64,000 nt of DNA from Parabacteroides sp. PFB2-10 (GTDB lineage Bacteria; Bacteroidota; Bacteroidia; Bacteroidales; Tannerellaceae): contig NZ_JARXWI010000013.1 of assembly GCF_029893085.1 (NCBI RefSeq), positions 1 to 64,000 on the forward strand. The letters are read 5' to 3'. Every line of letters begins with the position of its first letter. Position 1 is the stretch's first letter. Positions 26,642 through 38,535 of this stretch are shown piece after piece. The notes beneath the pieces are model-generated. The model saw only the letters and a program-made list of their open reading frames with translations. It did not search any database and was not told the origin of the DNA. The position numbers and the translations under genes are program-made.

Positions 26642-28489
26642 TTATCGGAAGTAGGTGATAACAACATATCCGTTGGAAGATGGCCGTGTTGTATTGGTTG
26701 GAAGGGTGAGGCCGGGGTTGGGCGCTTGAGTAGCGACATAATTCTGGCCACCTTTGCCACCGCCGCCGCCTCTGGAGTTTGATCCTCCACCAGCTTTTCC
26801 TCTTGCTCCGCCATTTCCTCCGTATAGGTATCCACCGCCACCGCCGCCACCGGCTCCGCCCCACGCGGCAACCCCACTTCCGGTCTCACCATTAGCTCCT
26901 GCACTACCATTAGTGTCGCTACTCGCTGTTGTAGCTCCGGCTCCTCCACTATTAGAGGCATTATCCCCATTGTCGGCATTACCATCACCTCCCATGCCAC
27001 CGCTGCTGCCGGTACCTGTTGAATTTCCACTACCACCACCACTGCCTGCTGCACCGCCGGAGCAAATTAATGTTCCGCTCAATGCGTTAGATGAAAGCAC
27101 GAATGTAGCTGCTCCGCCTCCTCCTCCTGCTCCGGCATAGTTATAGCCTGAAAGGCCTACCCAACCTCCACTGGCATCACCACCTTTTCCTCCATTCCCA
27201 TAACTCCAATTATTGGTTCCTCCATTTGCCCCGGTTCCAGATCCTTGATCACCAGAAGCCATACTAGCTCCGGCTGAACCTACATATATAAACAATGGTG
27301 TATCTTTCTCTAATTTATATAACCCGGACGCTTTTATCGCTTTTCCTCCATCTCTTTGAGTGTTCGAAGACCTCTCTCCTTTTCCGCCTTTACCTCCATC
27401 ACCTCCCCAGGCTTCGATATAGTAGTAGCCGGATTTAGAAACCGTAAAACTTGTACCTGCTGCATATTGTGCCGCGGGAGCCAGACGGATCCGGTGAATC
27501 TTGCCTCTTTCGAAGTTTACTCCGGAGGTGGTGTATAATGTTTTGTAAGCATTACTGGAGGAGGCCGTAGTGAATGTGAATGTTAATGTTTGTCCGGATA
27601 GATCTTTCACGGGCATAGGGATATACACTGCGCTTCCATCGCCTGCGGTAAGGCCGCCATCCGATATATTGACAGTCACGCTGTTGGAACCTCCTGAAAG
27701 TGTATAGGTGCTATCCAGCGGATTGTACTGCATAGTGCCATTGATACGGGTTGCATCGCTTGTGCTGCTTCCAACCGTCATGGTAATAGAAGTGACGGCA
27801 TCCGGCATAAGCCGTACATCCATCTCGATGGCTGCATAGGAGAGGATATGCTCGTAGTCGAAATGCAGTCCGCCCAACTGATAAACAGGGTCTACATCGC
27901 CTTCGGGGAAAAATATCTCCGGTTCTTCATTCTTTACAACAGCAACCATGGGTGCATACTTCGCCGGTACAAATGTATTGGACGCGATGGTGTAGGAACT
28001 CAGCATCGTGAATTGCAGGGTAGAAGGGAAAGAAGCAGAAGCCAGGCCATTGATGTTATGGGGAAAGAAAGAGTAAAAGTCGAAATGGGTTCCCGCATCC
28101 ATTAAGTTTTGGTATTGGACTTGAACAAGATCAGTTAGAAAAGTGGTACGCAGGGCAGGCTCCAGATTCATTGCTGTCAGCTCCATATTTTTGAAGCCTG
28201 AAACAATATTTACTGGCTCATTCACCTTCGTGACAGACATAACCACTTGATCTCCCTTGTCCCACCAATACTCATACGTATCCAGATTCAACGTGGCACG
28301 CGTATCGGGCATTTCCCCTTTTGTCTGGCTGCGTCCTCCGGACACGATGAAGGAATAACGGGCAGAAGGGTTGTTTTCCGGTTTCCCTTTTTCATTATTC
28401 TTATAGATACCTTCTTCTTGCGCGCACGACAAGGCACACAAAGCAAGGATAGCCATCCATATTTTCCGTATATATAGGTTTGTCTTCAT
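26642..28489 (-). CDS. Fimbrillin-like lipoprotein with glycine-rich C-terminal domain
   Basis: The 615-residue product is a lipoprotein (lipobox ALSC). Residues about 25-340 look like a fimbrillin/Mfa1-like beta-sandwich, with the SARYSFIVSGG start and FDYEHILSYAAIEMDV, the family H-L core. Residues about 345-615 form a different domain. It opens with FTVSKSGYYYIEAWGGDGGKGG, is glycine-rich throughout, and closes with NGYVVITYFR. This bracket matches the glycine-rich domain known from ALK/LTK-type receptors and several bacterial surface proteins. It is the last gene of the pilus operon, so a tip adhesin or terminal surface subunit is a reasonable inference. Two pieces of this gene (27446-27483, 28341-28382) recur in the mosaic remnant next to it. 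Confidence 0.82.
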   Translation of the reverse strand: MKTNLYIRKIWMAILALCALSCAQEEGIYKNNEKGKPENNPSARYSFIVSGGRSQTKGEMPDTRATLNLDTYEYWWDKGDQVVMSVTKVNEPVNIVSGFKNMELTAMNLEPALRTTFLTDLVQVQYQNLMDAGTHFDFYSFFPHNINGLASASFPSTLQFTMLSSYTIASNTFVPAKYAPMVAVVKNEEPEIFFPEGDVDPVYQLGGLHFDYEHILSYAAIEMDVRLMPDAVTSITMTVGSSTSDATRINGTMQYNPLDSTYTLSGGSNSVTVNISDGGLTAGDGSAVYIPMPVKDLSGQTLTFTFTTASSSNAYKTLYTTSGVNFERGKIHRIRLAPAAQYAAGTSFTVSKSGYYYIEAWGGDGGKGGKGERSSNTQRDGGKAIKASGLYKLEKDTPLFIYVGSAGASMASGDQGSGTGANGGTNNWSYGNGGKGGDASGGWVGLSGYNYAGAGGGGGAATFVLSSNALSGTLICSGGAAGSGGGSGNSTGTGSSGGMGGDGNADNGDNASNSGGAGATTASSDTNGSAGANGETGSGVAAWGGAGGGGGGGYLYGGNGGARGKAGGGSNSRGGGGGKGGQNYVATQAPNPGLTLPTNTTRPSSNGYVVITYFR

Positions 28490-28501
28490 TACTCAACAGT
28501 A

Positions 28502-29659
28502 TTAAAACTCATATATATCCTCTCCATCTTCCGGTGATTCCAGATCTCCGCTTATTACCACATTCAGATACATCCGGCGAGAATCGTCCTGCACATTGGA
28601 AACACCGTCCACATAAACGTTTACTCTGTATATACAGTTACGATCGATATCAAAATTACCATACAATGGAGTACTATTTTCGTATCCCTTACCAACAAGC
28701 ACGTAGGTTTGAAGCACCTCGTTATCTTCAGCATTTCCCTGAAAATTGAATTCAAAGGCGAATTTAGGAGCCTTTGCCTTTCGATCTTTCGCATTCAAAT
28801 TCGCAACAGTTCCCCTACGGTTCTCGAGACAATAGACTTCAAGGTAATGCCATTCATATCTATTAGGAGGTTGTTCCTCGATGGGGTGGTTAACAACGCG
28901 GCGAATATCAGTTAGGGAAGAGCGGTTGTAACCTGCAGTAACAGGCGTAAGGGATTGGGGATAATCATCTTTAGCTCCAATTTCATCAATGGTCGTGTGA
29001 CGTTCGACGATCCAGGAGTAGGCGGGAAGATTGTTTGAATAGCACGAGAGCAATTCCACACTGGAAAGATTATTTCCCGAAGCATCCACCAGATTGTATA
29101 TATTAACTTCCATTTTGGAATACAGGCTGCGCAGTTTGAGTGTAACAGTCGTTGTCTGGATTGGATTGTTTAATGTAACTACTGCAAACGGACTGGTTTT
29201 GGAACCACTGATCATCGGCATTTTAGTAGGTGCTTTACCTGGTTCTGCCGAAGAGATAAAGTATTTATTGTTAAGGTGAGCTATATTGGTTACATCATCG
29301 AAATAGGTCTCCGCCGTATAGTCGTCGGGGCAGTTGGCATCGACGAGGTTAGCGATAACAAATACCCGGTAGGTACCGCCCCTTTTTAAATATACTCTCT
29401 CGCCGTCGGTATACTTGATAGTCCGGCGATGAAGCACCTTATCCTCGGTTCCGTCAAACACGATAATGGTAGCGTTTTCAATCGCGGTTAACGAGGGATC
29501 GATACCGGCACGTGACACCTGTACCGATCCGTTTAACCCCACCAGTTCGATAGCAACCAGCTCCTCTTCTTCGATCGGCAGCTCCGTCTTACTGCATCCT
29601 GCGAAGAGGACCAACAGCAACAAAGCATATATTATATATCGTATCGTTTTCATCTTCAT
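28502..29659 (-). CDS. DUF4906/FimA-like fimbrial (tip-type) lipoprotein
   Basis: The 385-residue lipoprotein (lipobox FAGC) has two beta-sandwich parts. Features typical of Bacteroidales FimA/DUF4906 minor subunits are visible: ATIIVFDGTEDKVLHRRTI early (the mini-fimbrial domain), VTLKLRSLYSKMEVNIYN in the middle, and YRVNVYVDGVSNVQDDSRRMYLNVVIS at the end. Such proteins are minor or tip subunits of type V pili, transported as lipoproteins and then processed. It lies 12 bp upstream of the glycine-rich gene. It is less like the fimbrillins than the next six genes are to each other. Confidence 0.75.
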   Translation of the reverse strand: MKMKTIRYIIYALLLLVLFAGCSKTELPIEEEELVAIELVGLNGSVQVSRAGIDPSLTAIENATIIVFDGTEDKVLHRRTIKYTDGERVYLKRGGTYRVFVIANLVDANCPDDYTAETYFDDVTNIAHLNNKYFISSAEPGKAPTKMPMISGSKTSPFAVVTLNNPIQTTTVTLKLRSLYSKMEVNIYNLVDASGNNLSSVELLSCYSNNLPAYSWIVERHTTIDEIGAKDDYPQSLTPVTAGYNRSSLTDIRRVVNHPIEEQPPNRYEWHYLEVYCLENRRGTVANLNAKDRKAKAPKFAFEFNFQGNAEDNEVLQTYVLVGKGYENSTPLYGNFDIDRNCIYRVNVYVDGVSNVQDDSRRMYLNVVISGDLESPEDGEDIYEF

Positions 29660-29671
29660 ATCTCAAATCTG

Positions 29672-30910
29672 TTAATCGTATCGCTGATCGAACCACCATT
29701 CCTCCGCCTCGGCCGCTTCGAGTCGGATCTCCGCCGTTTCTAATAATTTGAAGGCCAGGTTATATATTTTCCCTGCTAACGGCATGACGCCAGTCTTCTC
29801 CGGATCGAAGTCATAAGTAACATACACCGGATTATTCTTACCTCGGATGGAAGTAAATATACTGAACGTATAGGTTTGCGCAGGCATAGCAAGCATATAG
29901 CCGAATTCCACCGCTGCGGCCGTAGCGTAGGTAGTAGGTAGTGACAAAGAGCCTGTCACCGGATTACCGTTCGTGTCTTTGGGACGAACTGCCGGGTATT
30001 CGGTGGTTAATCCCCGCTCCGCGTCGAAAAGCTCATCATCATATTTACCTGCGTCAGCCTGTTTACCTATATTCAATCCTATTCTCTTTGGCTGATTAAT
30101 AAGTTTCACGGAGTCGATGGTGCCATAAAGACTTTTCGCCAGTGCGCTCTCGGCAAAGAAATGACACCGCAAGGCGGTGAGCTTGTGCGAAAAGGTCAGT
30201 GCCTCAGTGAAGGGATGCTCAATATTTCCTCCTCCCATAGTCGAAGCCATGATGTCCTGACTTCCGTCTACCTCGAAGACTACCGCCGCCCCTAAAACAT
30301 CATCCCAGATGATGGTTCCATTCTCATCCTCTTCAACGTTTTCAATATCATAGATAGCATGATAGGGATAGAATGCCACCATGTAATAGTAGATCCCCAT
30401 CTCGTCGTAAAAAACCTGTTGAATGGCATCTCCCTTACGGTTGGTATATTCGATATTTCCCGTCCAAACGGTAGGGCCGGTGGCACCGGCATGAGGATCG
30501 GGGGTTATAGGGTCATCGGATGCTTCTTCGGTATAATTTCCAGGTTTGTCGTTTGGGGATTGCCCCCCGAAGAACCCGTAGTCAAGGTAAGTAGTCGGGT
30601 CATTCCATTCCGCGACGGTAGGGGGAGTATTATTTTCGTAAGAACCAAACTCTATCGTCACGATCCCTATTTTCAACTGATAGGGCGGGAGCCCGTCGCT
30701 GTTTGGAATGGGATGAATCATACCACCGGGATCGTTATACTCGTCATCGGCGCGCGTGGGGATACCCGGAGCCGGCAAAGAACCGCTCAACTCAACACGT
30801 GCCTTTTCGGGTCTCTTTGTCGGAATGGGTGTATCTTCCTCATCGTTGCATCCAAAGAGCAGCGTCAGGCAGCATAAGGCGATTATATAGAGCGTTTGTC
30901 TCATATCCAA
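29672..30910 (-). CDS. Fimbrillin-family (Mfa-like) lipoprotein
   Basis: The 412-residue lipoprotein has lipobox LLFGC and an acidic N-terminus. The beta-sandwich pattern of the fimbrillin family is visible: an H-K-L-T-A-L core in FTEALTFSHKLTALRCHFF, and a late strand IYNLAFKLLETAEIRLEAA. It differs from the three closely similar fimbrillins in lacking the TKAP segment. It lies 3 bp after the upstream fimbrillin stop and 12 bp before the tip-type gene, so it is part of one transcript. It is probably a minor pilus subunit. Confidence 0.75.
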   Translation of the reverse strand: MDMRQTLYIIALCCLTLLFGCNDEEDTPIPTKRPEKARVELSGSLPAPGIPTRADDEYNDPGGMIHPIPNSDGLPPYQLKIGIVTIEFGSYENNTPPTVAEWNDPTTYLDYGFFGGQSPNDKPGNYTEEASDDPITPDPHAGATGPTVWTGNIEYTNRKGDAIQQVFYDEMGIYYYMVAFYPYHAIYDIENVEEDENGTIIWDDVLGAAVVFEVDGSQDIMASTMGGGNIEHPFTEALTFSHKLTALRCHFFAESALAKSLYGTIDSVKLINQPKRIGLNIGKQADAGKYDDELFDAERGLTTEYPAVRPKDTNGNPVTGSLSLPTTYATAAAVEFGYMLAMPAQTYTFSIFTSIRGKNNPVYVTYDFDPEKTGVMPLAGKIYNLAFKLLETAEIRLEAAEAEEWWFDQRYD

Positions 30911-30913
30911 TTA

Positions 30914-32065
30914 TTAAAATCCCTCAATCTCCCGTAGTGTCTCATCTTCCAGCCATTCATCTATGGGGTTACTACTCTGAAATTCAATCCACGCCCCCGA
31001 GATGGATAACTTCACAATGAATGTCATCACATAGCCCGGCTTATTCAGCTTCACGTCAGGGAAAGGCATCGTTATATAATGTTCCGTATTCGATGGGGAA
31101 TCCGAGGCATCGTGATGGATGAACGCGACGTTTACCGCCGTAAAATTCTTACTAAGCTCGATATTCTGCGGAATGATCATCAGGCAATTTGCATAATCTC
31201 TTCCACCCATAGGCTCTAATGCACCGGCATCTACCATCAACGGATCTTCCCATAGGTAGTCGAACGCGTAGTCTGCGGGTTCGTATCCTTCATCATCATT
31301 CAATTCGGGTATATTGGTCCAGGTGGCGGTAGCCATATCAAACCGGCCGGTATTGATAATGCGTCCCGCTGTCATATTAAATTCGGTGACTTCGTAGCGT
31401 TCGACCTCGTTCGGTAAAGGATCATCATTCTCTACCAAAGGGGCAATCATAAAGCGAAGCCAGAGCAGCGCGTGCTTCATGTTGTACTTCACGCTGCCAT
31501 TGTTTTTTTCGTAGTTGATGTTTTGCACATCCGCATTATATTCCGAATAGAGCAGGTCGATCTGCTCGCTCATATTTTCCGGTACGCTGTAAATTAAATA
31601 GGGGTAGCTTATAGTATCCTCTTCTTCCAATTCTTTTATTTTCTCAGGAACAACAGCGAACGATCCTTTCGGAAAGTTCTCTTGATGGGGTGAATAAGCG
31701 AAGAAGGTATTCTTTATCGCTGGGTTGGCGGGCCAATAGGCTATGGGGGTGTAACTCCAGGATGATAACTCACCGGTCTCTTCATTCACAACCATTCGTT
31801 CGGCAAGCGCGTTATCGAATAGGTTGGGCGCTGTCTTACCATTAAAATCGTCCGTTCCCGTTGAGTAACCGATAATGCCAAGCGAGAGTATCTGGTCGGC
31901 CGTAGTCGTAACCTCCGCTTTGGTCAGGTCGGCATCTACATATAAACCGATCTTACGCGAGTTGTCCGGTGGTGTAGGCTCCTCTGCTTGTTCTTTGTCG
32001 CAACCCCATAACAGAGTTGCAAACAGGAATAATCCGATATATATATTACGGTTCATCATCATCAT
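30914..32065 (-). CDS. Fimbrillin-family lipoprotein
   Basis: The 383-residue lipoprotein begins MMMMNRNIYIGLF; the lipobox is LLWGC. Fimbrillin hallmarks include KAEVTTTADQILSLGIIGYSTG, the AYSPHQENFPKGSF segment and NMKHALLWLRFMIA. The segment EELEEEDTISYPYLIYSVPEN (31575-31702 at the DNA level) is the source of the third mosaic piece at 25563-25692. The start overlaps the stop of the upstream gene (ATGA). The ATG cluster leaves the exact start uncertain within 9 bp. Likely a structural or accessory subunit of the same pilus. Confidence 0.78.
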   Translation of the reverse strand: MMMMNRNIYIGLFLFATLLWGCDKEQAEEPTPPDNSRKIGLYVDADLTKAEVTTTADQILSLGIIGYSTGTDDFNGKTAPNLFDNALAERMVVNEETGELSSWSYTPIAYWPANPAIKNTFFAYSPHQENFPKGSFAVVPEKIKELEEEDTISYPYLIYSVPENMSEQIDLLYSEYNADVQNINYEKNNGSVKYNMKHALLWLRFMIAPLVENDDPLPNEVERYEVTEFNMTAGRIINTGRFDMATATWTNIPELNDDEGYEPADYAFDYLWEDPLMVDAGALEPMGGRDYANCLMIIPQNIELSKNFTAVNVAFIHHDASDSPSNTEHYITMPFPDVKLNKPGYVMTFIVKLSISGAWIEFQSSNPIDEWLEDETLREIEGF

Positions 32066-33669
32066 TTTTTTCTTATGATAAGCGTTCCTGGGTTGGTAAG
32101 CACATCCGATGGGTTGATGTTGGTCGTTCCTCCTTCAAGAGTCGGAAAGCCATCGACAGCGGGGAGTGTGGCAGACGTGGTGCCGTCTACATCATCTATC
32201 TCATAGCCTCCTTCACTTGCCCATTTCTCCCAGTCGATTCCCGGATGATCGCCTGTCTTGATCGTCTGTTTGGCTGACACAAGATCCCAATTCTCTTGAT
32301 AATTCTTCAGGACAACAGTAGATTGCCTGGTTGGGTCATCATGATCATTGGGGTCGGTGGGGTCGCCGTGGTACGTATCCCATTTGCGAATCAGTTTCTT
32401 CATGTCGAACATAACATGCTGCCCCGTCTTGAAACTGGATAACAGACCCGCAGTGGTCAGCACTGCCACATCAAACTCCATATCGTGGGTTACATCGTTC
32501 ACACCATACAAGCCAAAATACTTGTATGTATGCGAAAAACTATTTGCGTTGATCTTATTGAGTACATCCAGGGCGAATAGCATGTTTTCCGCATCTTTTT
32601 TTCTGTACATGGTAAGCATAATCGTTTGCAACACAAGGCTGGTAGCCCACTCGCCGATTGTTATATCATCGGAATCAGCCACCTCGACGCTGATTTCGTT
32701 TCCCCGGAAGTTCAAGGTGACATTAAATGAACGGCCTTGCGTAGATCCTTCAAAGGGAGTACTCTCCGTTTTCAGATCCAGTCCAATTGTTTTGTCGCTT
32801 CCATTGGAGGTCTTAATGCGCAACGTATATTCATTGCCGTCACCTGCCGTAACCGGCGCAGCAAGGATATAAGCTTGTGGTGCCAGATCATCACTCTTCA
32901 GGGCGATAGGGATCCCGGTAGAATAGTTTGAAACCGGTGTATCGTCTGCTACCAGATGTGCGCTTAGCGTGCTGATACTATTGTCTACCGAATAGGCGGA
33001 GTTCACGGGAACCGCTGCTCCCATATTCGCAGCACCCAATGATACGGTTACTTTGTTTTTGGTATTCGTCAATTGTAAATCCGTAATATCTCCCCAAGCC
33101 GCCGGTATACCAGCGTTTTCAGTTACCAGTGTGATATGCAGCTTTGTCAACAGGTGGTTGAATGTAAATTCCGGCTTCTCCGCCGCCTGCGAGATGTCCG
33201 AAGAGGTTTGCAGGGCAAACATCACATCCTCTTTACCGGTAAAGGTAAAAGAGGCGGTGGTAGTCGGAGAAGCGCTCCAGCCGGTAGCTGGATAGAGGCC
33301 GCAGAAATAAAGCGAAGAGCCATCGAGTTCATAAAAACTCTTTCCCGAAAATCCTTCCGTATCATACGGTGTTCTTCCTGCCCCTGTGAAGGTCATCGTG
33401 CCGTCGGCATGAAGCTTGCCGGTTGACGCCGTATAATCACCGGAGGTTTTCGAGGCAAGTACCCGCGCCTTTAACGGACTATCCACGCTCGGGCTCGTCT
33501 CGTTATAGGGCGCTTTGGTCTCGACGGAAGGTTGACGCAGGGAGGTAGCACTGGCGACAATCTCCGCCCCCGTATTGCCTCCGATGAAGTCAGGGTCATT
33601 GTCTGAACAACCAGACAAGAGCCCTAATCCCATCAAACAAAGAAATAGTATGTGTCTACCCTTTTTCAC
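32062..33669 (-). CDS. Fimbrillin-family lipoprotein with extended C-terminus
   Basis: The 535-residue lipoprotein (lipobox LLSGC) has an N-terminal fimbrillin part (about 20-330). Its signatures are VETKAPYN, LKARVLASKT, FTFTGKEDVMFALQTS, FTFNHLLTKLHITLV, AAWGDITDLQLTN and FNVTLNFRGNE, which are shared with the next two upstream fimbrillins. The extra ~200 C-terminal residues (GEWATSLVLQTIMLTMYRKK to LTNPGTLIIRKK) are not fimbrillin-like and I do not recognise them. The 3' end supplied the fourth mosaic piece. It is one of three closely related paralogues in the operon. The extension may make it a modified major or tip subunit. Confidence 0.8.
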   Translation of the reverse strand: MKKGRHILFLCLMGLGLLSGCSDNDPDFIGGNTGAEIVASATSLRQPSVETKAPYNETSPSVDSPLKARVLASKTSGDYTASTGKLHADGTMTFTGAGRTPYDTEGFSGKSFYELDGSSLYFCGLYPATGWSASPTTTASFTFTGKEDVMFALQTSSDISQAAEKPEFTFNHLLTKLHITLVTENAGIPAAWGDITDLQLTNTKNKVTVSLGAANMGAAVPVNSAYSVDNSISTLSAHLVADDTPVSNYSTGIPIALKSDDLAPQAYILAAPVTAGDGNEYTLRIKTSNGSDKTIGLDLKTESTPFEGSTQGRSFNVTLNFRGNEISVEVADSDDITIGEWATSLVLQTIMLTMYRKKDAENMLFALDVLNKINANSFSHTYKYFGLYGVNDVTHDMEFDVAVLTTAGLLSSFKTGQHVMFDMKKLIRKWDTYHGDPTDPNDHDDPTRQSTVVLKNYQENWDLVSAKQTIKTGDHPGIDWEKWASEGGYEIDDVDGTTSATLPAVDGFPTLEGGTTNINPSDVLTNPGTLIIRKK

Positions 33670-33685
33670 GCTATAAGTTTACTAC

Positions 33686-34786
33686 TTATTCTACATCTAC
33701 CGCAGCGCCGCCCGATGCAACCCATTCCGCTACAGTAGCCGTAGCCGTAATGCCTGTTGCTTGGAATGTTAATGCGATCTCAAAAGATTTACCTTGGGTA
33801 GATCCCGTAAATTCAGTAGATGGCGCATCCTTTTGCCTTAAATTTATCTTTACTTCACGACCTCCCGTATAAGTAGAAGAATAGATTTTTAATGTAAAAT
33901 CAGCTGTTCCGGTTGCTGTGATGGGTGCCACCATAGCGTAAGCGTTAGGAGAGTCAGGGAAATTAGTGCCCAATGTTATAACTTTATCTCCATCTCCACC
34001 AGTTTCTACTTCTGAAACCGCAACATCTGTTCCCGTATGATAGAAGGGGATAACGACCGTTGTTGATCCACTTTTGGAAGGAACCACGGCTGGTATAGGG
34101 GTGCCTTCTGCCGGCTTTGTTGCCATCGTTACTGTTACCGTATTAAGCGGTTCTACCGCTGCTCCTCCAGCTTTTATTAAATCTATCCCTGTGATATTCC
34201 CCCAAGCAGCTTTCCCATCAGTATCCGCTTTCACAGACACATTCAACAGGGTCAATAGGTGATTGAATTCCAGATTAGGAACAGTTCCACCAAGAGCAGC
34301 ATCTTTTGTATTGGATACCTGCCAGGCATACATTACATCTTCTTTACCGGTAAAGGTAAAAGAGGCTTTTTTAACAGCATCACCGCTAGCATCCGAAGCA
34401 GGAAGCGTCCATGTATCATACGGATGGAATCCGCTGAAATAGATAGCTGAATTACTCCCTGGATAATAGGTGGTAGTGGAAGGAGTAGTTTCATAACCTA
34501 CCGCAGTAGGCGTTCCTTCAGAGCTTATGAAAATCATTTTTCCGTTTGAATAAAGAGACTTATACTCAAGCGATGTTGCTGAAGAAACAACCCGTGCTGT
34601 CAAATTCGCAGTTGTTCCCGGCGTTGTATCCATATACGGTGCCTTTGTCTCTACGCCAATCGCCAGGCTTTTGGCGCTTAGGGTGATCGCTACCGGATCG
34701 GTCTCTTCGGGTATCAGTTCATTATCTCCCGAGTTACAGGCACTCAACAGACAAATGGATAATGCGAATACTAAATACTTTTTCAT
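33686..34786 (-). CDS. Fimbrillin-family lipoprotein
   Basis: The 366-residue lipoprotein (lipobox LLSAC) has the shared segments VETKAPYMD, FTFTGKEDVMYAWQVS, LEFNHLLTLLNVSVK and AAWGNITGIDLIK, and ends VAEWVASGGAAVDVE. The TKAP region lies where the N-terminal donor strand of FimA pilins lies, and an Arg (LTARVVS) follows it, which is where a gingipain-type protease cuts related pilins. This makes it a candidate major or structural pilin. A 26 bp run identical to the next paralogue (33228-33255 and 34344-34371) marks recent homology between the genes. Confidence 0.82.
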   Translation of the reverse strand: MKKYLVFALSICLLSACNSGDNELIPEETDPVAITLSAKSLAIGVETKAPYMDTTPGTTANLTARVVSSATSLEYKSLYSNGKMIFISSEGTPTAVGYETTPSTTTYYPGSNSAIYFSGFHPYDTWTLPASDASGDAVKKASFTFTGKEDVMYAWQVSNTKDAALGGTVPNLEFNHLLTLLNVSVKADTDGKAAWGNITGIDLIKAGGAAVEPLNTVTVTMATKPAEGTPIPAVVPSKSGSTTVVIPFYHTGTDVAVSEVETGGDGDKVITLGTNFPDSPNAYAMVAPITATGTADFTLKIYSSTYTGGREVKINLRQKDAPSTEFTGSTQGKSFEIALTFQATGITATATVAEWVASGGAAVDVE

Positions 34787-34821
34787 TTTTGTATGTATTT
34801 AAATTGTTCTTTATTTATTTT

Positions 34822-35898
34822 TTATTCGATAGTACCTGCTCCTGTTCCGCCGGCTACCCAATCGGTCACTGTTGCCGTAGCTTTGATTTCTGTTCCTTTG
34901 AAAGTAAGCGTAACATTAAAAGCATATCCCGCCGTATTTGTTACTTCAGCATTTTTTGGGGTAAGCTGTACTGTAACAGGGATGGCAGTCGTGGCAGTCG
35001 TTGTTTTTATATTCAGTACATAAGCGTTTTGTGCGTCTGTACCAGACAGCGTAACCGGTGTTACCAATGAATAAGCCACCCGTGCTGCTGCAGTGGGGAT
35101 TTCAATACTTTTCTCTCCCAAATTGGCAACAACAGTATCTTTAGCATGATAGGCAGTTGCACCTGCTTTGTAGAAAGGAATAGTTCCGGTAGTACCGAAT
35201 GTAACAGCGTTTGTAGAGAAAGTCACGGTTGCGATCGTATTTACCGCAGCAAGCCCTGAGCTACCCTTTGCCTGCGTTAAACTAAGATCGGTGATTTTGC
35301 CCCAGGCAGCAGATGTTTCTGCTTTAGCCGTAGCATCATCACCGCCTGCCACCACCAATATATTCAGTTTTGTCAGCTTATGTGTGAAGGCTAACGTAGG
35401 ATAAGAAGGGGTCGTGCCCGTTGCTGCAGATTTACTGGTACTCACTTGCGCCGCTGTCATAATATCGCTCTTCCCGTCAATCGGGTGAGTCGTTGCTGTT
35501 CCAAAAGTGCTCCATCCGCCGGTGCCAATGGCAGCCGGATAAAGCCCCACCATATAGATGGTCTGATCCCCGGGAAAAGATTTGTTTCCACCGGTTTCGA
35601 TAGAGGCAAAAGCGACAGGTGTTTCTCCATTAGCCGTAAATGTCATCGTCCCGTTTGTATGGAGCGCTGAATAATTATCTTCTGTTTTAGAGACCAACAC
35701 CCTTGCGGTTAAATTGTTGGTGCCGCTAATCGCCCCTTCAAACGGTGCTTTTGTTTCCACCTCCAAGGTCAACGCTTTGGATTTAGCCATAATTGCTACC
35801 TCCTGCGTGTTGTCAAAACCGTTGTCATCCTTTGAGCAACCGGTCCATGCCGTAGCCATTCCTATGGCGGCTACCATCCATAAATAACTTTTCTTCAT
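34822..35898 (-). CDS. Fimbrillin-family lipoprotein
   Basis: The 358-residue lipoprotein (signal MKKSYLWMVAAIGMATAWTGC) shares LTLEVETKAPFEG, LTARVLVSKT, SAAWGKITDLSLTQAK and FNVTLTFKGTEIKATATVTDWV with the next two downstream genes. Its composition, rich in Ala, Thr and Gly, is typical of an abundant pilin. The C-terminal DWVAGGTGAGTIE matches the C-terminal strand of these subunits. It has 58 bp to the upstream gene and 35 bp to the next. It is a good candidate for a major pilin. ATG 35904 is an alternative start two codons earlier. Confidence 0.82.
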   Translation of the reverse strand: MKKSYLWMVAAIGMATAWTGCSKDDNGFDNTQEVAIMAKSKALTLEVETKAPFEGAISGTNNLTARVLVSKTEDNYSALHTNGTMTFTANGETPVAFASIETGGNKSFPGDQTIYMVGLYPAAIGTGGWSTFGTATTHPIDGKSDIMTAAQVSTSKSAATGTTPSYPTLAFTHKLTKLNILVVAGGDDATAKAETSAAWGKITDLSLTQAKGSSGLAAVNTIATVTFSTNAVTFGTTGTIPFYKAGATAYHAKDTVVANLGEKSIEIPTAAARVAYSLVTPVTLSGTDAQNAYVLNIKTTTATTAIPVTVQLTPKNAEVTNTAGYAFNVTLTFKGTEIKATATVTDWVAGGTGAGTIE

Positions 35899-35962
35899 GA
35901 TCATTCTTTTTTAAATTATTACTTGTTTTTATTATTTTCTTCTTTTATAGTTGTTTTTACGC

Positions 35963-36916
35963 TTATCTATCTATCGTGCCCGATCCTTCGCCTCCCTCTT
36001 TCCAGGGGGTGACCCAGGCGGTCGTTTCTATATCCACCTCTATCTCTTCCTCTTTTTTCCGGAACGTCAGGGTGATCTCATACGAATGCCCCGCGGCAAA
36101 AGTGGATTCACCCAGAGGGGTTATGCATACATCCCGGAATATGCCTTTGTTGTCGGTCGCGATGTCCAGATAGAACTGTCGCAATCCGGGTTGCAACATC
36201 AGGCTGCCGGCAATCTTCTGTGGCTTCTCCTCTGTGCCCGTTATCTTCACGGGATAGGAAGAGGGGAGAGCAATATGTTGCGGATTAGACCAATCACCCA
36301 AATTGCCATCTTCGATATACAAGACAGAAGAGGTATTGACATCCCTGAATGTGATACTTTCTATGGCCGTTTCGCTAAAGTCACCCTCATCGATCAAGAC
36401 AAAATGGAACTGGCTCAACAGATGGTTATAGGCTAAAGAGGCCGGTATTTTATTGTCGGATCCGACCACCGGATCGGCATACATCAGGTCTTCCTCGCCT
36501 GTCAGGGTGAAGTGAAGTAACGGAGCGGCTCCCGTTTGCTCTTCCATATAGTTCGCCCCTGCTTCGCCGGTCGGCGCATACGGATAATAGGAGTAGAAAC
36601 GTACCTCTTCGCGGTAGGGATAATAATAGGTTCCTTCCCACTGAAGCCTGCCTGTCTCTGTATCGACAGCAGTTGTGCGCACATGGGGCATCACCGCCGG
36701 TAGCGACCAATCGGTGATGGCATAGATGCCTATCCGGTCGCCCATCTTGGCCAGGTCGGAGAGATCGTTGACGGAGGCACGCGATTCATAGGCATCAGTT
36801 TTCACCCCCAGCGTTATTTTAGCGCAAGAGGGCACCGGTGCCGTCTCCTCTTTCACGCAAGAGAACAGGGCGCAGATGCCAAAACAGGCTACTATGAATC
36901 GTTTAGTTTTCATCAT
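35963..36916 (-). CDS. Fimbrillin-family lipoprotein
   Basis: The 317-residue lipoprotein (lipobox LFSC) is shorter and more diverged. It keeps the fimbrillin plan: ITLGVKTDAYESRA, HFTLTGEEDLMYADPVV, LAYNHLLSQFHFVL and a C-terminal YEITLTFRKKEEEIEVD followed by WVTPWKEGGEGSGTIDR. It overlaps the preceding gene by 4 bp (ATGA), so the two are translationally coupled. It may be the anchor-proximal subunit, given its position after the FimB-like gene. Confidence 0.78.
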   Translation of the reverse strand: MMKTKRFIVACFGICALFSCVKEETAPVPSCAKITLGVKTDAYESRASVNDLSDLAKMGDRIGIYAITDWSLPAVMPHVRTTAVDTETGRLQWEGTYYYPYREEVRFYSYYPYAPTGEAGANYMEEQTGAAPLLHFTLTGEEDLMYADPVVGSDNKIPASLAYNHLLSQFHFVLIDEGDFSETAIESITFRDVNTSSVLYIEDGNLGDWSNPQHIALPSSYPVKITGTEEKPQKIAGSLMLQPGLRQFYLDIATDNKGIFRDVCITPLGESTFAAGHSYEITLTFRKKEEEIEVDIETTAWVTPWKEGGEGSGTIDR

Positions 36917-37827
36917 TCTGTTATATCTCCCGTACCTTTTCCCTCTTCCCAGGGTTTAACCGTTGCTGTCAGGCCACCGTCGATCACCTCCAGCTCTACC
37001 TCAATCTCAACGGGAATATCGATTGGTATATCACCTTTGTTGCTGTCCAGTATGTCGGTTATAACCTCGCTCAGGTCGACCTCTGCCCAATAAGTGTTCG
37101 ATTCGTCGTCTTCGAGTACCACATGCATCTTGTTATGATAATGCGTTCCATTGGACGGATTATAGAGTCCCAATAGGTGAATAACTGCCGTAGCCGTATT
37201 ATCCTCGCTTAGTTCAATGTCAAAAGGGATCTTCCAGTCGGTCTCATCGCCAACGGGCAGTCCGGTCGCCAGGTAAACAGCATAATAAACACCTTCGAGC
37301 ATACCACTTATGCGCTGATATTCATCGCCATTTGTAACACTAAACTGTAGGAAAAGCGTTCTTGTCAGGGCATACATCCGGGAATGTACGATTGTTTCCT
37401 CTTCGGCAGTAACCATGGCTGATTCCACTGCCAGGCGGAAGGCGTTTTCGGAAGGGAGGAGTTCTTTGGCGTCAGTTTTTGTCTGATCGACCCGGATAGC
37501 GGTTGCTTTCGCCTGATGGTAATCATCGAGATCCGTAAAGTCGAGACCCAAGGTATTGGTGTTATGGCTGATAAGGGAATAAATGCCTGCTTCGGTAGTG
37601 ATACTATATTCCGACGAAGCGGTTTCCAGGTGTAAGGGGGTCGCCTCCATCTGGTAGAGATGGGTATTAAGCACAGGGGTTACCTCTTGTTCTTCCCACT
37701 CGGGATAAACATGCAGTATGCCTTTTGTCTCCTTAGTCTTCTCTTGCAACGTAGCTTCCGTGCAAGCAATCATAAAAAGAACAAAGACAAATAACCCTAT
37801 TACTAAAAATCGATTCCTTACTTGCAT
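36913..37827 (-). CDS. DUF5119/FimB-Mfa2-like lipoprotein
   Basis: The 304-residue lipoprotein has a signal peptide (LFVFVLFMIAC) and starts the mature part KTKGILHVYPEWEEQEVTP. The GxLHVYPEW motif is typical of DUF5119 proteins, which follow DUF3575 genes in Bacteroidales pilus clusters. The C-terminus is an isolated W-x-G strand PWEEGKGTGDITE, as in the fimbrillins downstream. By synteny it corresponds to the FimB/Mfa2 role of membrane anchor and length control. It is the second gene of the operon. Confidence 0.78.
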   Translation of the reverse strand: MQVRNRFLVIGLFVFVLFMIACTEATLQEKTKETKGILHVYPEWEEQEVTPVLNTHLYQMEATPLHLETASSEYSITTEAGIYSLISHNTNTLGLDFTDLDDYHQAKATAIRVDQTKTDAKELLPSENAFRLAVESAMVTAEEETIVHSRMYALTRTLFLQFSVTNGDEYQRISGMLEGVYYAVYLATGLPVGDETDWKIPFDIELSEDNTATAVIHLLGLYNPSNGTHYHNKMHVVLEDDESNTYWAEVDLSEVITDILDSNKGDIPIDIPVEIEVELEVIDGGLTATVKPWEEGKGTGDITE

Positions 37828-37860: not shown

Positions 37861-38535
37861 CTAAAATCGGTAAGCCAGGCTGATATTCCACTCCATGACT
37901 CCCCATTTGTTCGCTTTTTCTTCTCCGATATAAAATTTATCAGGATCGCTCCACTCATACGCGCGCGCGTTAGAATCTCTATATCCCGCGCGAACGCCTG
38001 TTTCAACACCTAATCCTTTATAAATAGTCCAATAGTATCCAACAGAAAGCCCAGCCTGCCAATATTTTCCGGTATAATTATCCGTTGGGCGGGTCGCATT
38101 TGCTGTTTTACTCTTATTGCGCACATCGTAATCTCCGGCTCCTATAAATGCCCCGACATAAAGCCCGGTATTTTTATTCCCCATCAACCAACGACGTGGC
38201 TCCATACTATAACCAGAAACGCCCCAAAATGTTCGCTCAGCCCCGTAATTCCAATACGCGTACATCGCAGACGCTTGTAGCGACCACTGGGAAGAAATGA
38301 AATATTCAACTGTGAGATTAGGGGTAAAAGCGGTATGCTTGAACTCCGATGTGAATCCGATCCAACGTAAACTGTTTGTTTTAAAGGCTAATAGAGGAGA
38401 TTCCTTTTCTTTTACTTCCTGAGCACCTGATTCAAGAATCTCTTTTTTTTGCTCAGCATGAAGCGGAACAAAACTCCATAGTATAAAAATCAACACATGC
38501 AATATACCCCTACTCTTATTGTAAGCATTATTCAT
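37861..38535 (-). CDS. DUF3575 outer-membrane-like protein
   Basis: The 224-residue protein has a signal peptide (HVLIFILWSFVPLHA). Its mature part matches the DUF3575 family: LLAFKTNSLRW near the start, FTPNLTVEYFISSQWSLQASAMYAYW, RRWL, GLYVGAFIGAGDYDV, and an end in MEWNISLAYRF, typical of an outer-membrane beta-barrel. DUF3575 genes open fimbrial loci in Bacteroides and Parabacteroides, as here. It is the first gene of the operon; no TAnnTTTG promoter is obvious in the 350 bp upstream. Confidence 0.85.
   Translation of the reverse strand: MNNAYNKSRGILHVLIFILWSFVPLHAEQKKEILESGAQEVKEKESPLLAFKTNSLRWIGFTSEFKHTAFTPNLTVEYFISSQWSLQASAMYAYWNYGAERTFWGVSGYSMEPRRWLMGNKNTGLYVGAFIGAGDYDVRNKSKTANATRPTDNYTGKYWQAGLSVGYYWTIYKGLGVETGVRAGYRDSNARAYEWSDPDKFYIGEEKANKWGVMEWNISLAYRF

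Follow-up and report, generated by a model that had tools for sequence, protein, structure and literature searches.

A Parabacteroides pilin operon ends in a fimbrillin-like lipoprotein with an ALK/LTK-type glycine-rich domain, a probable type V pilus tip pilin

The window that we analysed is the 64-kb stretch (64,000 nucleotides) at the start of contig NZ_JARXWI010000013.1 of Parabacteroides sp. PFB2-10. It contains a closely spaced run of genes, all on the minus strand, from position 38535 to 26642:

37861..38535, minus strand: DUF3575 outer-membrane-type protein, first of the run (Pfam)
36913..37827, minus strand: DUF5119-like protein, candidate Mfa2-type anchor (below the Pfam cut-off; conserved order)
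35963..36916, minus strand: Mfa_like_1 fimbrillin, candidate stalk (E 2.7e-19; conserved order)
29672..35904, minus strand: five fimbrillin-like lipoprotein genes, at 29672, 30914, 32062, 33686 and 34822 (order kept in G002 and G027)
28502..29659, minus strand: preceding gene, DUF4906/FimA-like pilin (both matches just under the Pfam cut-off; neighbour in all three genomes)
26642..28489, minus strand: whole gene, fimbrillin-like lipoprotein with a C-terminal ALK/LTK-type glycine-rich domain, 615 amino acids (open reading frame list; full-length orthologues)

The initial annotation had described 26642-28489 as the last gene of a pilus operon, and the run does end there. Nine operon genes are collinear in G002, a genome of the same genus, and in G027, from another genus, with the glycine-rich fusion gene last each time. 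The gene sits in a pilin operon with a candidate stalk and a candidate anchor, the latter identified from a sub-threshold DUF5119 match. Full-length orthologues matched the product at 64% in G027 and at 52-55% in G002; the G002 orthologue was unlisted in the local blastp of operon genes and was found by direct comparison (E 2e-134). Within the operon, the only inverted repeat found in a search for an invertible promoter was one of 20 nt at 75%. The Bacteroides-type promoter pattern occurred four times in the window, with two expected, and not immediately upstream of the run. In G027, an open reading frame that by eye resembles a tyrosine recombinase adjoins the operon in divergent orientation. 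The second longest pilin of the window's operon, after the product of 26642-28489, is the 535-residue product of 32062-33669, which carries Mfa_like_1 and an additional C-terminal part of more than 200 residues and could likewise be at the tip or have an accessory function.

The 615-residue product is divided as follows:

28424..28489, minus strand: signal peptide and lipobox (LSC, Cys22; sequence, invariant in three orthologues)
28298..28300, minus strand: Arg64 in PDTRAT, possible maturation site for a protease of the clostripain/gingipain type (same residue in all three orthologues; proposed from P. gingivalis Rgp sites)
27467..28423, minus strand: N-terminal part, residues 23-341, probably a divergent fimbrillin region of two sandwiches (fimbrillin profile matched by hhalign; low-confidence fold match)
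26645..27466, minus strand: C-terminal glycine-rich domain, residues 342-615, ALK/LTK GRD-like (shuffle control, profile comparisons, predicted fold)
27383..27430, minus strand: opening strand with the first run of glycines, GYYYIEAWGGDGGKGG, residues 354-369 (sequence; alignment with canonical bacterial domains)
27098..27127, minus strand: internal hallmark GGGGGAATFV, residues 455-464 (lines up with the corresponding motif of ALK)
26651..26671, minus strand: closing strand GYVVITY, residues 607-613 (sequence; domain model)

Two features expected of type V pilus tip pilins are present, namely a signal peptide with a lipobox (LSC22) and an Arg/Lys site past the lipidated N terminus. Mfa proteins of P. 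gingivalis have Rgp sites at Arg43-54 (PMC5789003), and by sequence Cys22 and Arg64 are consistent with the way in which type V pilins mature, as lipoproteins cut by a protease (PMC5789003). The glycine-rich domain of about 270 residues that the initial annotation placed between GYYYIEAWGGDGGKGG and GYVVITY was confirmed: it spans 274 residues, 85 of them glycine (31%), compared with 6.7% glycine in residues 1-341.

A fimbrillin-like N-terminal part had also been claimed, and here the outcome was divided. Searches of Pfam and of PDB sequences with this part gave no match, and hhalign comparison with the operon's other pilins one by one gave none either; the likeness was recovered, as that of a remote fimbrillin, by profile-profile comparison, by fold comparison and from operon context. 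Aligned to a fimbrillin profile with hhalign, the N-terminal part scored E 8e-8 (1.9e-3 under other settings), and a single-sequence HMM gave 6.8 bits, with shuffled copies reaching 6.2 at most. A low-confidence full-length model, too weak for describing domain orientation, had as its best folds other than ALK the Bacteroides fimbrial/adhesion proteins 3sy6, 4h40 and 3ufi (Z 6.7-7.0); this evidence is not fully independent, because the alignment behind the model included fimbrillins. We conclude that the N-terminal part is probably a divergent fimbrillin. It was present in 3 of 123 genomes of the family, every time with the glycine-rich domain, and the operon thus appears patchily distributed.

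The kinship of the C-terminal domain with ALK/LTK, which had been proposed from its opening and closing motifs alone, was upheld by profile search, profile-profile comparison, shuffle control and fold comparison. Standard searches missed it. The window protein gives no match to Pfam PF12810 (ALK_LTK_GRD), nor do its orthologues; nothing meaningful was returned from Pfam, NCBIfam and PHROG, and single-protein phmmer against the PDB yielded a weak match to an antibody linker only. As the PF12810 gathering score, a detection threshold and not a biological feature, is not reached, we describe the domain as homologous and ALK-GRD-like without counting it as a formal member of the Pfam family. In relatives from the same bacterial family Pfam does recognise ALK_LTK_GRD domains, and a canonical HMM was built from ten of these, in other Bacteroidales of that family, with the window protein left out. 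The window domain scored 41.6 bits with this HMM, whereas 500 copies of it shuffled within 20-residue windows had a mean of -37 (s.d. 6) and a maximum of -16. Because shuffled copies score at least 57 bits lower, the likeness exceeds composition, and a low-complexity artefact was rejected. The search against glycine-rich families proposed with the initial annotation, missed by PF12810, succeeded between profiles: hhalign of the window-type profile with the canonical profile gave 98.9% and E 1.3e-17. When a profile of the window domain and its two orthologues was compared with the whole PDB (E<=10), the only chains returned were ALK and LTK (best E 1.3e-6), which the profile of canonical relatives reached at 1.5e-12. 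The segment GGGGGAATFV...LICSGG aligns in register with GGGATD.R...RILVAGGGG of canonical bacterial domains, and also with ALK. These comparisons show that the glycine-rich domain is homologous to the ALK/LTK ligand-binding domain beyond composition.

Structure prediction, suggested as a check, pointed the same way. An AlphaFold2 model of the domain (mean pLDDT 68.5, pTM 0.77) had an ALK-like fold, and its first 21 Foldseek matches were all ALK and LTK. VIA-align gave Z 13.2 for ALK (rmsd 3.4 over 179 residues), 12.9 for LTK and 10.7 for nematode ALK, followed by the fibre of cyanophage Pam3 (8.8) and the tail tip of Bxb1 (8.5); scores then fell steeply, the next rows being TNF-family ligands at Z 4.0. 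The predicted fold is a TNF-like sandwich with a glycine-rich insertion. In the model DSSP, which has no polyglycine-helix class, assigns hardly any strands or helices to the glycine-rich segment, where block pLDDT ranges from 27 to 85. Loss of the C-terminal domain in homologues would have counted against the original proposal; both orthologues retain it.

Compared with the GRD of ALK/LTK (PF12810; 7lrz, 7mzy, 7nx0, 7lir), the window domain has the same motif order and a TNF-like sandwich interrupted by glycine-rich segments, and matches at Z 13 over about 180 residues with 24-28% identity. It differs in residing on a bacterial pilin, not a receptor kinase, in lacking an EGF-like module and in scoring below Pfam detection. 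The Pam3 tail fibre gp24 (7ypx; PMC9608196) is structurally related to it (Z 8.8), and published work linked the gp24 fold to ALK and proposed that the domain binds host receptors (PMC9608196). That protein is a trimeric phage fibre that needs the chaperone gp25, whereas the window gene is a pilin fusion with no such chaperone seen. The fold is shared by numerous predicted viral proteins, among which are many phage structural proteins. Searching phage genomes by tblastn with the window domain and with the canonical domain gave no matches, and a scan of viral contigs was likewise empty.

Fusions of the same architecture occur elsewhere. In sister genera, Mfa_like_1 and ALK_LTK_GRD are found in single proteins, both above Pfam cut-offs, and G446, a genome of another family, carries such fusions too. 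In these genomes both parts match Pfam directly and the genes may be multi-copy, whereas the window gene is single copy with both parts divergent. The G446 genes form an array (C1:1956505-1990619; L046-L048) of 16 fimbrillin genes in two arms, eight on each strand, and an ALK-type glycine-rich domain ends 15 of them. With one exception the spacers are 64 nt long, and each contains a perfect inverted repeat, TCTCTTCTCTC-GCG-GAGAGAAGAGA. Two gene pairs are identical. The remaining gene, L047:8432-10027, joins the common N-terminal part to an unrelated C-terminal domain with a WYLPSVGQW motif, possibly Lcl/C-type-lectin-like (by eye; no Pfam hit), suggesting exchange of whole domains. Genes 1956505 and 1966329 share 94% DNA identity in the N-terminal part and 55% in the C-terminal part, and across 55 pairs the median protein identity was 67% in the N-terminal part versus 45% in the glycine-rich domain. 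Within the domain, variation was least at positions aligned with predicted strands (0.99 bits) and greater at non-glycine loop positions (1.79 bits). A fixed chassis with a variable binding surface would be expected to vary in this way, and conservation of the chassis with divergence of the glycine-rich domains supports a binding role for the latter. A tyrosine recombinase gene (1955328-1956338) adjoins the array. Between the arms, 550 nt are enclosed by a 107-nt inverted repeat (96%), which may mark an invertible control region, although a divergent promoter region present twice would give the same picture. From its sequence, the array looks like a system for pilus-tip variation.

The domain is found on other chassis in Bacteroidales, in Listeria-Bacteroides repeat proteins and, by eye, in FGE-sulfatase-like or collagen-like proteins; it is thus a general surface module, not one confined to pili.

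Three further genomes bear on its distribution. G020, from the window's own family, had 14 ALK_LTK_GRD matches (loci L014, L018, L021 and L023-L033), often at contig ends, as if the assembly had been broken by repeats. In G471 (L052, L068, L076) the glycine-rich domain may be present in as many as 29 copies, six of which were scored; the three copies inspected lie behind a domain that looks FGE-sulfatase-like (AYCSWSGLRPMSELE), another multi-copy chassis. In G100 (L005:1-2319), a secreted protein with a 1915-residue frame begins with a closely similar glycine-rich domain, which is followed by Listeria-Bacteroides repeats.

Our preferred reading, to which we give a probability of about 0.72, is that the product of 26642-28489 is the tip pilin of a type V pilus and bears an ALK-fold receptor-binding module. 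We infer a tip adhesin because the protein is a lipoprotein pilin, its gene is the last of the operon, and its C-terminal fold binds ligand in ALK and is proposed to bind receptors in the phage fibre. The protein would be exported as a lipoprotein via Cys22, and a surface clostripain-type protease would probably cut after Arg64, a maturation step that would free the groove of the fimbrillin part (residues ~65-341, with the presumed fimbrillin fold) for the donor strand of the next pilin. The 274-residue ALK/LTK-type domain would replace the C-terminal donor strand of a shaft pilin. This domain, predicted to be a TNF-like beta sandwich in which the strands are connected by glycine-rich loops that bundle together, would be exposed at the distal end of the pilus and may act in adhesion by binding a putative receptor, either glycan or protein, on a host cell, on mucus or on another bacterium. 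Known type V tip pilins (Mfa3-5 and FimC-E of Porphyromonas; tip pilins of Bacteroides) are lipoprotein fimbrillins encoded in pilin operons with an extra C-terminal domain (PMC12632263, PMC5789003), as the window protein probably is too. The adhesive domains named in the publications surveyed are lectin domains, or a vWF domain in the atypical Mfa5, whereas the C-terminal domain of the window protein is of ALK type. Tip pilins with extra, ligand-binding C-terminal domains were already known, as was, through Pfam, the presence of the ALK-type domain in bacteria; a full-text literature search, incomplete in coverage, found no report that joins a fimbrillin with an ALK-type domain.

With about nine candidate pilins in the operon, another of them may be the tip. 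The protein may instead be an accessory surface lipoprotein, its ALK-fold binding domain carried on a fimbrillin-like chassis that is lipid-anchored or decorates the shaft. The number of pilins favours this, as do the adjacent DUF4906/FimA-like protein, which partly matches a model of the FimD tip adhesin, the great divergence of the N-terminal part and the occurrence of the domain on non-pilus chassis. We nevertheless consider it unlikely, given a gene that is last in a conserved pilin operon, an invariant Arg64 past the lipobox and the same architecture on an undisputed Mfa_like_1 chassis. It is very improbable that the glycine-rich part owes its likeness to ALK to composition and is a spacer, whether flexible, disordered or of low complexity: the 31% glycine and the pLDDT below 50 at residues 172-208 of the 282-residue query would suit a spacer, but the gap to shuffles of the same composition, PDB matches to ALK/LTK and to no other glycine-rich chains, and the ALK-like fold argue against one. 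Receptor mimicry, in which the domain would capture host ALK/LTK ligands (ALKAL cytokines), draws on homology confined to the ligand-binding domain but is scarcely credible for a fold common on predicted phage proteins, a domain found on proteins of many bacteria and an identity of about 25%.

Beyond this locus, we tentatively propose, at somewhat under even odds, that ALK-fold glycine-rich domains serve several Bacteroidales as interchangeable, rapidly varying receptor-binding tips of their type V pili, with a fold common to phage tail fibres, and that in some genomes (G446) two-armed arrays, which would recombine and lie next to a tyrosine recombinase and a possibly invertible control segment, amount to an antigenic-variation-like system for pilus tips. 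The ligands of type V pilus tips are largely unknown (PMC12632263), and a tip domain whose relatives ALK, LTK and Pam3 gp24 have been solved would give work on them a structural footing, together with a fragment of known limits for assays. Bacterial adhesive fibres would also join phage fibres in bearing a domain that is mostly familiar from a human receptor linked to cancer, a distribution that bears on the origin of the animal domain.
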